Below, piece by piece: positions 58,145-64,000 of a DNA stretch of 64,000 bases. The stretch is from Planomonospora sp. ID67723 (GTDB taxonomy: Bacteria; Actinomycetota; Actinomycetes; Streptosporangiales; Streptosporangiaceae). The notes below the pieces were generated by a model that was given only the letters and a program-made list of their open reading frames with translations, had not been told where the DNA came from and made no database searches. The position numbers and the translations under genes were made by a program. Every line of letters starts with the position of its first letter. Position 1 is the first letter of the stretch. The stretch spans positions 620,001 through 684,000 of the forward strand of contig NZ_JABTEZ010000002.1 of NCBI RefSeq assembly GCF_015711605.1, given 5' to 3'.

Positions 58145-58726
58145 TCAGACCGGGACGTTCCAGGAGAGGATGACCGGCTCGCCGTGCTCGAAGCCGAGGC
58201 GGGAGTAGGTGCCGGTGTTCAGGCGGTAGAAACGGCCCTCCTCGGGAGGCCGGCCGAGCCAGCGGGCCGCCAGGACCCGGAGGAAGTGGCCGTGGGCGAC
58301 CAGGGCGACGTCGCCCGCCGCGGCCCTCGCGCGGTCGAGGACCCGGTCGGCGCGGGCCCCGACCTGCGCGGCGCTCTCGCCGGGGTGGTCGGCGTCGCCG
58401 GGGATCACCCCGTCGCGCCACAGATACCAGCCGGGGCGGGTCTCGCGGATCGCCGCGGTGGTGATCCCCTCGTAGCCGCCGTAGTCCCATTCCCACATGT
58501 CCGGCTCGGTCGCGTAACCGTCCAGCCCGGCGAGCTCGGCCGTGCGGCGGGCCCGCAGTGCGGGGCTGACCAGGACGAGGTCGAAGTCCCTGTCCTTGAC
58601 GAGGGGGGCGAGCGCCCGTGCCTCGCCCTCTCCCCTGGGGGTGAGCGGCAGGTCGGTGAGTCCCGTGTGCCGCCTGTCCCGGCTCCACTCCGTCTCGCCG
58701 TGCCGCAGCAGAATCATCTCGTTCAT
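58145..58726 (-). CDS. Histidine phosphatase family protein (phosphoglycerate-mutase-like)
   Basis: 193 residues. ILLRHGETEWSRDRRHTGLTDLPL gives the RHG catalytic motif. LVLVSPALRARRTAEL, the acid Glu region WEWDYGGYEG and VALVAHGHFLRVLAARW follow in order. It removes phosphate from a small molecule through a phospho-His; substrate unknown. MNEMILLRHG (58726) is chosen as start. It is on the same strand as the LLM gene but 95 bp behind its stop, perhaps not in the same unit. Confidence 0.9.
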   Translation of the reverse strand: MNEMILLRHGETEWSRDRRHTGLTDLPLTPRGEGEARALAPLVKDRDFDLVLVSPALRARRTAELAGLDGYATEPDMWEWDYGGYEGITTAAIRETRPGWYLWRDGVIPGDADHPGESAAQVGARADRVLDRARAAAGDVALVAHGHFLRVLAARWLGRPPEEGRFYRLNTGTYSRLGFEHGEPVILSWNVPV

Positions 58727-58821
58727 GGTGAACCCATCATGCCGGTACGGCTCGCGCCGTCCCGCCGGTGCCCCCGCCCGCCGGTCGCGCCTCTCGTGTT
58801 CCCCGACCCGTTGCGCACCGG

Positions 58822-59736
58822 TCACCGTCCCGCGAGCTCCTCCACGACCGGGGTGAAGGCGTCCAGGTCACGCTCGTGGTGGAGCACGAAGTAGGACAGG
58901 TCGTGGGTGTCGCGCCAGTGCCGGAGCTTGTCCACGATGTCCTGGCGGGTGCCGAGCAGGACCTGGGGGGTCTCGTCCTGCCGGGAGGAGTCGGCGGCGC
59001 TCCACGACTCGCCCGGCCTGCGCGCGCCGAGCTGCTGGACGCTGGTGCCGAGCTCGATCGCGCCGTAGCGGCCGGCCGCGGCCCGCCGTACCAGGTCGAT
59101 CTTGGCGAGGAACGCGTCCAGGCCGCCGTCGGCGCCGTCGGGGCCGATGCCGTCGGCCCTGACCCGCATGCCGAGGTTGATCACGTCGGCTTCGCGGGCG
59201 GCGAGCCGGAGCATGCGCGGCCCGCCGCCGCCGAGCAGCAGCCGCGGGTGAGGCCGCCGGACCGGCTTGGGGCGCTGGTCCAGCCCGTCGATCCGGTAGT
59301 GCTCGCCCTGGAAGCTGAAGGGGCCGTCGCCCCAGAGTCCCTTGAGGACCGTGATCGCCTCGGCGAGCCGGTCCACGCGGGTCCCCGGCGGGTCGAGCGC
59401 CAGTCCCGCCGAGGCGTAGTCGGCGGCCATCCAGCCGGTGCCCAGGCCGAGCTCCAGGCGGCCCTCCGAGAGCAGGTCCACGGTGGCCGCCTCCTTGGCG
59501 AGCACCGCCGGGTGCCGGAAGTCGTTGGCGAACACCAGGGTGCCGACCCGCAGCCGGCCGGTCGCGCAGGCCGCCGCGGTCATCGCCGCGACCGGCGCCA
59601 GGCGGGGGCCCACCAGGTGGTCGGGGACGAGCAGCACGTCGAAGCCCGAATCCTCCAGGCGGCGGGCCTTGCTCGCCCACTCCCTGCCGGAGGCGGCCTC
59701 CCTGACCACCGCGGCGAACCGGAACGGCCGATCCAT
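58822..59736 (-). CDS. LLM-class F420-dependent oxidoreductase
   Basis: 304 residues with a bacterial-luciferase-like TIM barrel: FRFAAVVREAASGREW, FDVLLVPDHLVG, VGTLVFANDFRHPAVLAKEAATVDLLSEGRLELGLGTGWMAADY and FVLHHERDLDAFTPVVEEL. It matches the TIGR03621 F420 group. It probably reduces or oxidises an organic substrate with F420. ATG 59736 follows GGGAGGA. It is divergent from the PhyH gene; a perfect ACCAAGCGCTTGGT site lies 29 bp upstream. Confidence 0.88.
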   Translation of the reverse strand: MDRPFRFAAVVREAASGREWASKARRLEDSGFDVLLVPDHLVGPRLAPVAAMTAAACATGRLRVGTLVFANDFRHPAVLAKEAATVDLLSEGRLELGLGTGWMAADYASAGLALDPPGTRVDRLAEAITVLKGLWGDGPFSFQGEHYRIDGLDQRPKPVRRPHPRLLLGGGGPRMLRLAAREADVINLGMRVRADGIGPDGADGGLDAFLAKIDLVRRAAAGRYGAIELGTSVQQLGARRPGESWSAADSSRQDETPQVLLGTRQDIVDKLRHWRDTHDLSYFVLHHERDLDAFTPVVEELAGR

Positions 59737-59764
59737 CGGCGTCCTCCCTCTCCCGATCATCCTG

Positions 59765-59778
59765 ACCAAGCGCTTGGT
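59765..59778. promoter_or_regulatory. TetR-type palindrome, KstR2-like, site 1
   Basis: ACCAAGCGCTTGGT, a perfect 14-bp palindrome fitting AnCAAGnnCTTGnT, the pattern known for KstR2-type repressors. It is 29 bp before the LLM start. Confidence 0.65.
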
Positions 59779-59858
59779 AAGCCTACGGAGGGGAGGAGGG
59801 CCGCGGAAGGCCCGCCGTTCCGGGGCGAACCCGCCGGGCCTCCCCTGCGGTTCTCTAT

Positions 59859-59872
59859 ACCAAGCGCTTGCT
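59859..59872. promoter_or_regulatory. TetR-type palindrome, KstR2-like, site 2
   Basis: ACCAAGCGCTTGCT, identical to site 1 except near one end, 31 bp before the PhyH start. Together the sites cover both promoters of the divergent pair. Confidence 0.65.
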
Positions 59873-59903
59873 TTACGACGGTGCGCGGTCCGACACTGAG
59901 CCC

Positions 59904-60728
59904 ATGGCTGACAAGACCCCGGCGCCCACGGCCGACACCACCCCGGTCCGCGACGTGACCGACGACGAGGTCGCCCGCTTCAGGGAGAACGGCTGGGTAC
60001 GCCTGCCGCGCCTGGCCGACCCCGCTCACGTGGCCCTGCTCAGGGACCGGGCGCTGGAATACCTCGCCGGGCGCTCCCGCGCCGTCACCTCCACGGTGGA
60101 CCGGGCGTTCGGGCAGTCCAGGGACATCGCCGAGTCCGACGGGCACTTCCGGGCCCTGGCCTTCGACCCCCGGCTGGGCCGGGCGGCCGTCCGGCTGCTG
60201 CACGGAGTGGCCGGGGTGCGGGTGCAGGTGACGAACCTGCTGATCAAGGAGCCGGAGGACGGGGGGCACGGGGCCACCGAGTTCCACCAGGACTTCCCGT
60301 GGATGCCGATGGACCGCTCGGCCATGCTCACCGTCTGGCTCGCGCTGGCGGACGTGCCCGCCGACATGGGCTCCCTGCGGTTCTACAGCGGCTCCCACCG
60401 GTACGGCGTGCTCGGCCGGTCCTTCGCCCGCGACGGCGACGACCAGCTCAGCCAGCATCCCTGGCTCAAGGAGCTGGAGCTCTCCCCGCCGCTCGACCTC
60501 GCCGCGGGCGACGCGACCGTGCACCACGCGCTGACCGTGCACGGCGCCGCCGCCAACCGCCGTGACACCCCCCGCCTGTCGTTCACCGTCACCTACTTCG
60601 ACGCCGACGCCCTCTACACCGGCACGCCGTACCGGCAGACCGACGGGCTGGGACTGGCCGTCAACGAGCCGTTCGAGCACCCGAAGTTCCCGGTCGTGGC
60701 CCCCGCGCGGGCCGGCGGGGAGCGGTGA
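59904..60728 (+). CDS. Phytanoyl-CoA dioxygenase (PhyH) family Fe(II)/2-oxoglutarate oxygenase
   Basis: 274 residues. FRENGWVRLPRLADPAHVALLRD is the family opening. The iron triad is His128 and Asp130 in EFHQDFPW, and His213 in LTVHGAAANRR, with Arg in DTPRLSFTVTY for 2-oxoglutarate. MGSLRFYSGSHRYG is typical. It hydroxylates an aliphatic or terpenoid-like substrate. First gene of a five-gene run; the next gene starts 7 bp after its stop. ATG 59904 is chosen. Confidence 0.9.
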   Translation: MADKTPAPTADTTPVRDVTDDEVARFRENGWVRLPRLADPAHVALLRDRALEYLAGRSRAVTSTVDRAFGQSRDIAESDGHFRALAFDPRLGRAAVRLLHGVAGVRVQVTNLLIKEPEDGGHGATEFHQDFPWMPMDRSAMLTVWLALADVPADMGSLRFYSGSHRYGVLGRSFARDGDDQLSQHPWLKELELSPPLDLAAGDATVHHALTVHGAAANRRDTPRLSFTVTYFDADALYTGTPYRQTDGLGLAVNEPFEHPKFPVVAPARAGGER

Positions 60729-60735
60729 GCCGGTC

Positions 60736-61734
60736 GTGAGCGAGCAGAGGGAGGGCGCCCGGGCCGTCGAGACCGTCGCCGGGCCGGTGGAGGAGCCGGG
60801 CGCGACGCTCATGCACGAACACGTCTTCGGGCTCAGCCCGGAGATCCTGTGGAACTGGCCGGACATCCCCGAGGGCTGGGACCTCGAACGGCGGGCCCGC
60901 GAGGCCGCCGACAAGCTGACCGAGCTGAAGGGCCACGGGATCGACACGATCGTGGACCTCACCGTGATCGGACTGGGCCGGTACGTGCCCGCCGTCCAGC
61001 GGGTGGCCGAGCTGACCGAGGTCAACATCGTCGCCGCGACCGGCCTGTACACCTACGACGCACTCCCGCCCTACTTCGGCAACCGCGGCCCGGGATCGCT
61101 GTTCGGCGGCCCCGACCGGCTGGCCGAGTTCTTCGTCCGGGACATCACCGAGGGCATCGGCGACACCGGGGTCAGAGCGGGCATCCTCAAGTGCGCCTCC
61201 GACCACCTGGGCATGACCAAGGGCTGCGAGCGGGTCTTCCGCGCGGTCGCCGAGGCGCACCGGGCCACCGGCGTGCCGATCTCGACCCACTCCCACAGCG
61301 CCTCGGGCGGCGGCCTGGACCAGCAGAAACTCCTCGCCTCCGAGGGCGTGGACCTGGGGCGGGTGGTGATCGGCCACGCCGGGGACTCCACTGACCTGGC
61401 CTATCTGGAGGAGCTCGTCGCGGGTGGTTCCTACCTGGGCATGGACCGGTTCGGCATCGACACGATCAGCTCGTTCGAGGACCGGGTGGCGACGGTGGCG
61501 GCCATGTGCGAGCGCGGCCACGCCGGACGCATGGTCCTGTCCCACGACTCCTACTGCTTCAACGACCGCTTCGACCACGAGGTGGTACGGCGCCGCCACC
61601 CGGACTACCACCTGCTGCACATCTCCCGGGACGTCCTGCCCGAGCTGCGCAGGCGGGGCGTGACCGAGGAGCAGATCCACCAGATGCTCGTCACCAACCC
61701 CCGCGACGTCCTCACCCCGTGCCGGCCGTACTGA
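60736..61734 (+). CDS. Phosphotriesterase-family metal hydrolase (lactonase-like)
   Basis: 332 residues. All metal ligands are present: His27 and His29 in LMHEHVF, Lys152 in GILKCASD, His185 in ISTHSHS, His214 in VIGHAGDS and Asp271 in LSHDSYCF. Relatives hydrolyse lactones, phosphotriesters or esters. In a catabolic run with oxygenases a lactone made by ring or chain oxidation is a fair guess. GTG 60736 starts 7 bp after PhyH. It contrasts with the ligand-poor homologue at 31.9 kb. Confidence 0.9.
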   Translation: MSEQREGARAVETVAGPVEEPGATLMHEHVFGLSPEILWNWPDIPEGWDLERRAREAADKLTELKGHGIDTIVDLTVIGLGRYVPAVQRVAELTEVNIVAATGLYTYDALPPYFGNRGPGSLFGGPDRLAEFFVRDITEGIGDTGVRAGILKCASDHLGMTKGCERVFRAVAEAHRATGVPISTHSHSASGGGLDQQKLLASEGVDLGRVVIGHAGDSTDLAYLEELVAGGSYLGMDRFGIDTISSFEDRVATVAAMCERGHAGRMVLSHDSYCFNDRFDHEVVRRRHPDYHLLHISRDVLPELRRRGVTEEQIHQMLVTNPRDVLTPCRPY

Positions 61735-61817
61735 GCCGTCGCGGGCCCGTCCCAGCGGACCCCGCGGCGGACGACTCCGAGCCCGCCGTACCGACCCCCG
61801 AAAGCCGGGAGACCCTC

Positions 61818-63017
61818 ATGATCGACGCTGCTGACTTCGACGTCGGCGCGGCCTGGCACGTCGCCGCGCCGTACGACTTCCTGCGCAGGCTCCGCCATGA
61901 GCGGCCGGTCTTCCGCAGCGAGCACCTGGACGCCTACGTCCTGACCCGCTACGCCGACGTCCGCGCCGCCTACGGCGACCCTCGGCGGTTCTCCTCCGAG
62001 GGCTCGCTGACCATCTCCCGGAGCCTGTCGGCGGAGACCCGCCTCAAGCTGGGCGAGCACGGCTCGTTCCTGTCGAGCTTCGTGGCCAACGTGGACCCGC
62101 CCGTGCACACCCGGCTGCGCCGCTCGGTCTCGCGGGCCTTCACCCCGCGCGCCGTCGCCGCGCTGGAGCAGCGGTTCCGGGAGCTGAACGAGGAGCTGCT
62201 CGGCCGGGTGGTCCCGCGCGGCGGGGGCGACCTGGTGGCGGAGATCGCCCACGCGCCGTCGGCCAGGCTCACCGCGCGGTTCATCGGCGTTCCGCAGGAG
62301 GACGAGGAGTTCGTCAAGAACCACGTGAAGGACTGGTTCCAGCTCTTCCTGTCACCGCAGCCGCCCGACCGGCAGCTCGCGCTGGCCGAGAGCTTCCTGG
62401 TCTACCTCGACTACGTGGACGGGCTCGTCGCCTCCCGGGCCAAGGAGCCCCGTGACGACTTCACCTCTCTGATGACCTCCCTGATCGGCACCGAGCTGTC
62501 GCACCGCGAGGTGGTCGAGCTGATCTCCACGATCCTGCTCGGCGGCAACGACACCGTCCCCAACCAGCTCGGCAACAGCGTGCTGCGGTTGCTGCGCGAG
62601 GGACTGTGGCCGGTCCCGCCGGAGAAGGCCCGCAACGCCGTCGAGGAGTGCATGCGCATCGACGGCGCCAGCCTCGGCTCGTTCCGCTACGCCACCACCG
62701 ACGTCGAGCTGCACGGGACGACGATCCCGGCCGGCTCGCTCTGCCTGCTCTCCACCGACTCCGCGGCCCACGACGAGACCGTCTTCGACGACCCCGAACG
62801 GTTCCTGATCGAGCGTCCCAACGCCGACGCGCACATGACCTTCGGCTACGGCATCCACTTCTGCGTCGGCGCGGCGCTGGGCCGCCTCCAGCTCCGCACC
62901 GCCCTGGAGGTCCTCGGCGAGCGCCTGCCCGGGCTGCGCCTGGTCCCCGGCGAACCCCTCTCCTACCGCCCCTCGATCGTCGGCCGGGGCCTGACCGCGC
63001 TGCCCGTGGAGTGGTGA
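61818..63017 (+). CDS. Cytochrome P450
   Basis: 399 residues. Helix I has LLGGNDTVPNQ (residues 242-247 GGNDTV), where Val follows the Thr. Helix K ExxR is EECMR. The haem loop is FGYGIHFCVGAALG, with ligand Cys349. VDPPVHTRLRRSVSRAFTPRAV is the usual helix C region. It is a soluble class I enzyme needing ferredoxin and reductase from elsewhere. It lies in a run with PhyH and SDR, with its TGA overlapping the SDR ATG. ATG 61818 follows CGGGAGA. Confidence 0.93.
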   Translation: MIDAADFDVGAAWHVAAPYDFLRRLRHERPVFRSEHLDAYVLTRYADVRAAYGDPRRFSSEGSLTISRSLSAETRLKLGEHGSFLSSFVANVDPPVHTRLRRSVSRAFTPRAVAALEQRFRELNEELLGRVVPRGGGDLVAEIAHAPSARLTARFIGVPQEDEEFVKNHVKDWFQLFLSPQPPDRQLALAESFLVYLDYVDGLVASRAKEPRDDFTSLMTSLIGTELSHREVVELISTILLGGNDTVPNQLGNSVLRLLREGLWPVPPEKARNAVEECMRIDGASLGSFRYATTDVELHGTTIPAGSLCLLSTDSAAHDETVFDDPERFLIERPNADAHMTFGYGIHFCVGAALGRLQLRTALEVLGERLPGLRLVPGEPLSYRPSIVGRGLTALPVEW

Positions 63018-63823
63018 TGCGCTTCGGCGGCAAGGTCGCTCTGGTGACCGGGGCCGGTTCGGGGATCGGCGCGGCCACCGCGCACCGGCTCGCCGCCGAG
63101 GGGGCCCGGGTCGGGGTCGCCGACCTGCGCCCGGCGGGCGCGCGGGCGGTCGTCTCGGCGATCAGGTCCGCGGGCGGTACGGCGTGCGCCCTCCACTGCG
63201 ACGTGTCCGAGGAGGCGGAGGTGGCGGCGGCGGTGGCCGAACTGGTCGCCTCGTTCGGGCGGCTGGACGTGCTGCACTCCAACGCCGCCTGCCTGGACCG
63301 GGAGGTCTACGGCAGGGACCAGGACCTGCTCGACATGGACGTGGACGTCTGGGACCGGACGATGGCGGTCAACCTGCGCGGCGCGATGCTCGCGGTCAAG
63401 CACGCGGTCCCGGCGATGGACGACGGCGGCGCGATCGTGCTGACCTCCTCGGTCTCGGCACTGGTGGGAGACGCCGACCACGCCGCCTACGGCGCCTCCA
63501 AGGCGGCGCTGACGGGCCTGGTCCGCTATGTCGCCACCATGTACGGCTCCCGCGGCATCCGGTGCAACGCGGTGGCGCCCGGCCTGGTCATGACCGACCT
63601 GGCCCGGGCCGTGATGACCCCGGAGCGGCTGGCGGAGAAGGCCGCCGAACGCGTCCTGCCGTGGGCGGCCGAATCGGATGACGTGGCCGCGCTCGTCGCC
63701 TTCCTCGCCTCCGACGAGGCGCGCTGCGTGACCGGTCAGACGGTCGTCGTCGACGGCGGCACCACCGCGCACCGCCCCGAGCACGCGATCAGGACATGGT
63801 CCCGTGAGAAGCTGGACATGTGA
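63017..63823 (+). CDS. Short-chain dehydrogenase/reductase
   Basis: 268 residues. TGAGSGIG cofactor motif, CDVSEEAEV, HSNAA (for NNAG), catalytic Ser in VLTSSVSALVG, YGASKAALTG giving YxxxK, NAVAPGLVMTDL and TGQTVVVDGG. It would oxidise the alcohol made by the P450 or PhyH to a ketone. The start overlaps the P450 stop (ATGA), and its own stop overlaps the next start (GTGA). Confidence 0.92.
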   Translation: MRFGGKVALVTGAGSGIGAATAHRLAAEGARVGVADLRPAGARAVVSAIRSAGGTACALHCDVSEEAEVAAAVAELVASFGRLDVLHSNAACLDREVYGRDQDLLDMDVDVWDRTMAVNLRGAMLAVKHAVPAMDDGGAIVLTSSVSALVGDADHAAYGASKAALTGLVRYVATMYGSRGIRCNAVAPGLVMTDLARAVMTPERLAEKAAERVLPWAAESDDVAALVAFLASDEARCVTGQTVVVDGGTTAHRPEHAIRTWSREKLDM

Positions 63824-64000
63824 CGATTTCTGTTGGCCTGGTGGGCGCCGGGCCGTGGGCGGAGAAGGTGCACGCGCCGGCGCTGGCGGCCGGGCCGCAC
63901 ACCCGGCTGGCGGGGGTGTGGGCCCGCAGGCCCGAGGCGGCGGTCAGGCTGGGGGCCCCGGTCTTCGAGCGGATCGAGGCGTTGTTCGACGCCTGCGAGG
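63820..64000 (+). CDS. Gfo/Idh/MocA-type oxidoreductase, 3' end outside window
   Basis: 60 residues visible: SVGLVGAGPWAEKVHAPALAAGPHTRLAGVWARRPEAA, the Rossmann opening of the GFO/IDH/MocA family, which act on sugars, cyclitols or related alcohols with NAD(P). GTG 63820 overlaps the SDR stop by 4 bp, so it is coupled to the run. The gene continues past base 64000. Confidence 0.82.
   Translation, partial: MTISVGLVGAGPWAEKVHAPALAAGPHTRLAGVWARRPEAAVRLGAPVFERIEALFDACE

Follow-up and report, generated by a model that had tools for sequence, protein, structure and literature searches.

A conserved oxygenase and lactonase-like gene cluster with a KstR2-type operator in Streptosporangiales hints at an undescribed way into the ring C/D pathway

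Introduction

Genome surveys identify steroid-degrading bacteria by KshA and HsaC. In the genome of a Planomonospora strain, whose nearest named relative is Planomonospora venezuelensis of the same genus, a gene cluster raises the question of which compound is oxidised by a set of enzymes that belongs to no familiar route, and of what controls it. The cluster lies at the end of a 64,000-nucleotide stretch (the window; G000:C2:620001-684000 of the 8.34-Mb genome). An earlier note, made from the sequence alone, had regarded it as an uncharacterised catabolic island, suggestive of the stepwise oxidation and lactone opening of a terpenoid, steroid-like or cyclitol compound, and knew no described pathway with its gene set. 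Consistently, no described cluster with the LLM, PhyH, PTE, P450, SDR and Gfo/Idh set was found in the literature searched.

Results

Gene layout and conservation of the cluster

The divergent arm of the cluster is a gene for an F420-dependent LLM oxidoreductase (TIGR03621; 58822-59736, minus strand; NCBIfam 285 bits, cut-off 213). Facing it on the plus strand are genes for a PhyH-family Fe(II)/2-oxoglutarate oxygenase (59904-60728; PF05721, E=1e-24), a putative phosphotriesterase-like lactonase (PTE family, 60736-61734; PF02126, E=7e-94), a cytochrome P450 (61818-63017; PF00067), an SDR dehydrogenase (63017-63823, with an alternative GTG start at 63014; PF13561, E=5e-67) and the 5' part of a Gfo/Idh/MocA oxidoreductase (63820-64000; PF01408, E=2e-15 on L009:9820-10674). 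The six families named in the earlier note are thus borne out by Pfam and NCBIfam. The tight packing described there was found only in part: the PhyH and PTE genes are 7 bp apart, the P450 and SDR genes overlap by 1 bp with the ATG start or 4 bp with the GTG start, and the SDR and Gfo/Idh genes overlap by 4 bp, but 83 bp separate the PTE and P450 genes, so that the run is not uniformly packed.

Only 181 nt of the Gfo/Idh gene lie inside the window; its end is at window-equivalent position 64674, 674 bp past the window, and a convergent MarR gene follows directly (L009:10747-11193, minus strand). The run, which had been expected to continue beyond base 64000 together with a TetR gene, therefore goes on solely with the rest of the Gfo/Idh gene, and no TetR gene was found among the genes adjoining the cluster, including those beyond base 64000. 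On the other side, a histidine-phosphatase gene (58145-58732, minus strand) is the next one downstream of the LLM gene; many relatives have it in the same position, which is probably ordinary synteny.

As only two genomes represented the genus, 297 genomes of the order Streptosporangiales were sampled. PhyH relatives were found in 67 of them, two being weak paralogue-like matches (44 and 48% identity). Named contigs with PhyH relatives numbered 65 and came from 13 named genera, among them Dactylosporangium from outside the order. Among 74 distinct loci, PhyH, PTE and P450 genes stand in this order in 70, and in 61 the LLM gene points away from PhyH; the SDR and Gfo/Idh genes are optional, the latter being found in 49 loci and missing from many copies. 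A single stop-containing row was left out of one alignment. In PhyH, PTE, P450, SDR and Gfo/Idh alike, the catalytic residues show almost no variation across the loci. This conserved order, together with the near-invariant catalytic residues, indicates that the LLM gene and the divergent PhyH-PTE-P450 run are a real conserved module. That the genes co-occur elsewhere, on which the idea of a catabolic island had been made to depend, supports the view of an undescribed catabolic unit.

The operator pair and a candidate regulator

Two operators lie between the LLM and PhyH genes, at 59765-59778 (ACCAAGCGCTTGGT) and 59859-59872 (ACCAAGCGCTTGCT). The shared operator pair seen earlier is real, and both of its members are exact matches to the KstR2 motif AnCAAGnnCTTGnT (PMC3068626), of which the window contains 2 matches in all and 100 shuffles of it gave 0.00. 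The second operator, 31 bp before the PhyH start, has the very sequence at which binding of KstR2 to the kstR2 promoter of M. tuberculosis was proven by EMSA. A palindrome precedes PhyH in 69 of the 74 loci, and in 62 it is the same 14-mer as ACCAAGCGCTTGCT. The Dactylosporangium PhyH copies (L172 and L174; 57% identity) have no KstR2-type site, and their upstream stretch differs, with TACGTATCGTATCGTAAAC in L172.

Ten KstR2-type sites occur in the whole 8.34-Mb genome; since the same genome also contains 9 matches per strand to the reversed control pattern TNGTTCNNGAACNA, this count is weak when taken alone. The matches of the control pattern are perhaps the operator of another regulator. A central CG is found in nine of the ten KstR2-type sites, and the genes next to the sites form a coherent group, comprising a KstR2-family TetR gene, an HsaB-like gene divergent from thiolase-DUF35 genes, a P450 gene divergent from a FAH gene, FadD and a dehydrogenase, although several of these genes (FadD, DUF and thiolases of L022-L025) were assigned by eye. 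The HsaB-like//DUF35-thiolase, P450//FAH and FadD targets recur in other genera. The pair formed by this other P450 gene and a divergently oriented gene of the fumarylacetoacetate-hydrolase family, with such a site between them (L028:5848-8376), is conserved in three genera.

The KstR2-family TetR protein (TetR A) is encoded at C2:117986-118672, about 560 kb from the cluster. It matches the KstR2 structure 4w1u with E=2.5e-49, and its recognition helix, GILSGSLYHHF, is identical to that of KstR2, while the overall identity is 44%. Its gene carries its own KstR2-type site 72 bp upstream of the start, a site kept in three genera, and its family is present in all 67 PhyH-positive genomes versus 156 of the 230 others. 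A second KstR2-like protein (TetR B) is encoded within the ipd-like set of the same genome, which also contains EchA20-, IpdA-, IpdB-, IpdC-, FadE- and FadA6-like genes (C2:1909478-1918655). KstR2 orthologues have been reported at >50% identity to M. tuberculosis KstR2 (PMC3068626); by this measure TetR A falls short, and TetR B reaches 51% but has the altered helix GMLGGSLYYHF. Since no KstR2-type site was found in the 20-kb stretch containing these ipd genes (L215:9478-18655), TetR B may use another operator. As TetR B adjoins the ipd genes, which carry no matching site, a direct tie between TetR A and ipd genes has positional support only in Nonomuraea, where one genome (G049) has FadA6-, IpdC-, IpdB-, IpdA- and EchA20-like genes within 9 kb of the TetR A gene. 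The same 14-mer may also serve other TetR proteins. HIP-CoA is the known effector of KstR2 (PMC5380842). Taken together with the distribution of IpdA described below, these sequence comparisons give good support to a KstR2-type regulation of the cluster and its coupling to the ring C/D pathway.

Predicted functions of the enzymes

Among solved structures, the nearest relatives of the PhyH protein, a 2-oxoglutarate oxygenase, are SnoK and SnoN, both by sequence (27-30% identity) and by fold. They are also the closest matches to its predicted model, which is of moderate confidence (pLDDT 75); the fold and the HxD...H...R site are shared, and H128, D130, H213 and R224 are invariant in 74 orthologues.

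For the PTE protein, the best solved match is 4if2 (E=2e-121), with about 60% identity to M. tuberculosis PHP/PPH (Rv0230c), a phosphotriesterase-like lactonase and PLL member (PMC3468530), which makes lactone hydrolysis its likely reaction and the proposed lactone opening plausible. As had been noticed from the sequence, all metal ligands are present, namely the four His, the carboxylated Lys and the Asp of the PLL metal site: H27, H29, K152, H214 and D271 are invariant in 73 of 73 orthologues and H185 is found in 68, the other five being alignment gaps. The protein thus resembles PPH/PHP, AhlA and SsoPox in its full binuclear metal site; different from these enzymes, it is a predicted lactonase encoded in one operon with oxygenases, behind a KstR2-type operator. 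Assignment as an organophosphate hydrolase (OPH, NF041153) was rejected at 151 bits versus a cut-off of 500. The genome has a second PTE-family gene (L011:10396-11541), divergent from a phosphotransferase-like gene and beside acyl-CoA dehydrogenase and SDR genes.

The P450 retains its ExxR motif (E277/R280), D245-T246 and heme ligand C349 in 71 orthologues, and no close characterised relative of it was found. S145, Y158 and K162 of the SDR are conserved in 46 loci. Cyclitol chemistry was rejected: the Gfo/Idh protein scores 45 bits versus a cut-off of 355 for inositol 2-dehydrogenase, and its gene is absent from many copies of the cluster.

Co-occurrence with IpdA and near-exclusion with KshA and HsaC

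The IpdA- and IpdB-like proteins of the genome match the solved IpdAB with E=2e-95 and 7e-86, respectively. Among the 297 Streptosporangiales genomes, IpdA is present in 65 of 65 with the cluster and in 93 of 232 others. The association is also seen within Nonomuraea (29/29 with the cluster versus 5/14 without) and within Streptosporangium (5/5 versus 1/11).

KshA and HsaC, which serve as markers of the 9,10-seco pathway (PMC4810484), were scored at E <= 1e-80 and E <= 1e-90, respectively, weaker relatives not being counted. Among IpdA-positive genomes, KshA was found in 4 of 65 with the cluster versus 69 of 93 without it, so that strong KshA is missing from 61 of the 65 cluster genomes; for HsaC the exceptions are the same four. 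In a within-genus permutation, the cluster and KshA coincided in 3 genomes where 11.3 were expected, and none of 200,000 shuffles was as low, with effects of kinship and genome size not fully removed. No KshA- or HsaC-level match was found at family level in the Planomonospora genome. Classical 9,10-seco steroid or cholesterol catabolism was therefore rejected for this genome, both markers being absent here and strong in only 4 of 65 cluster genomes. Of the substrates first proposed, both the KstR2-type operator and the presence of IpdA in every genome with the cluster speak for a steroid-like compound, and a cyclitol was not retained. A further 24 IpdA-positive genomes have neither strong KshA nor the cluster, and may harbour further entry routes. 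The finding of the conserved set mostly in genomes without the usual first-ring enzymes hints at an undescribed way into the ring C/D pathway.

Discussion

Operon conservation, operator identity, the KstR2-family regulator, the co-occurrence with IpdA and the near-exclusion with KshA and HsaC are read directly from the genomes. We lean, with modest confidence, towards the reading that the cluster is a KstR2-type accessory catabolic module, which would feed an IpdAB-type ring C/D pathway by a route without KshA and HsaC. Against it stand the 44% identity of TetR A to KstR2, TetR B being closer overall, the 24 IpdA-positive genomes with neither KshA nor the cluster, and the Dactylosporangium copies without the operator.

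We hypothesize that a KstR2-family TetR repressor, whose gene lies elsewhere in the genome, keeps this accessory operon of Streptosporangiales switched off and is released probably by an acyl-CoA intermediate. Hydroxylation of a polycyclic substrate, probably steroid- or terpenoid-like, would fall to the P450 and the 2-oxoglutarate oxygenase, and the SDR, Gfo/Idh and F420 enzymes would adjust the oxidation level. A lactone formed after oxygenation would be opened by the PTE-like lactonase. FadD enzymes belonging to the same regulon would then activate the resulting acid with CoA for entry into the IpdAB-type ring C/D (hydrindane) pathway. Most carriers of the cluster lack the classical KshA/HsaC upper branch, whose place it would take. 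The repressor binding, substrate, reaction order and direction of flux in this scheme are what we infer. Its boldest form, in which the ring C/D (HIP-type) pathway has a second, KshA- and HsaC-independent aerobic entry, with the two oxygenases yielding a lactone, the PTE opening it and KstR2-type control tying the module to IpdAB, is put forward only tentatively.

An alternative that we regard as unlikely is a KstR2-type regulon module that works on side chains or substituents, or serves to detoxify inhibitory intermediates, and does not replace the KshA/HsaC entry. The regulon and the co-occurrence with IpdA fit it equally, four genomes hold the cluster together with KshA and HsaC, and the DUF35-thiolase aldolase-like regulon genes suggest side-chain cleavage; the near-exclusion of the cluster with KshA inside genera argues against it.

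Improbable, in our judgement, is an operon for the degradation of lactones or quorum signals like qsd of Rhodococcus erythropolis (QsdA lactonase, QsdC acyl-CoA ligase, QsdR TetR), which likewise has a PTE-family lactonase under TetR-type control (PMC6262395). Different from qsd, the cluster has neither an acyl-CoA ligase nor a TetR gene adjoining the PTE gene, its regulator being unlinked; homoserine lactones need no two oxygenases, and the operator is the KstR2 motif.

Shared ancestry or genome size might also account for the associations with IpdA and KshA, which would then have no functional meaning, as cluster genomes are concentrated in few genera and some Nonomuraea genomes are very large; we give this little credence, for the association is also seen within Nonomuraea, within Streptosporangium and, in the case of KshA, within Actinomadura. 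Least probable of all are tailoring genes of secondary metabolism, which the likeness of PhyH to the nogalamycin enzymes SnoK/SnoN and the frequency of such P450s in secondary-metabolite clusters might suggest, but no PKS, NRPS or terpene cyclase was recognised by eye in the flanking genes, nor any nogalamycin-type biosynthetic genes near PhyH, and the cluster is kept across 13 named genera with a KstR2-type operator in 69 of 74 loci.

The accessory catabolic module that we favour can be compared with the KstR2 regulon and HIP pathway of Mycobacterium and Rhodococcus, with which the Planomonospora genome shares the 14-bp operator, a KstR2-family TetR with an identical recognition helix, and IpdAB and EchA20-, IpdC- and FadA6-like genes. 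However, the described regulon of about 15 genes is without PhyH, PTE, P450 and LLM genes (PMC3068626, PMC5380842), whereas here the sites are dispersed over the chromosome and KshA and HsaC are missing. Anaerobic steroid degradation in Sterolibacterium and Steroidobacter denitrificans offers a precedent for HIP-CoA reached by other than the aerobic route (PMC5380842), although that pathway is anaerobic and the cluster encodes O2-dependent oxygenases.

Were many actinomycetes to arrive at the last-ring pathway differently, they would escape surveys based on KshA and HsaC. Should the proposed entry hold true, a new ring-opening chemistry under a known regulator would become directly testable, and KstR2-type regulators would be given a wider role than cholesterol catabolism.
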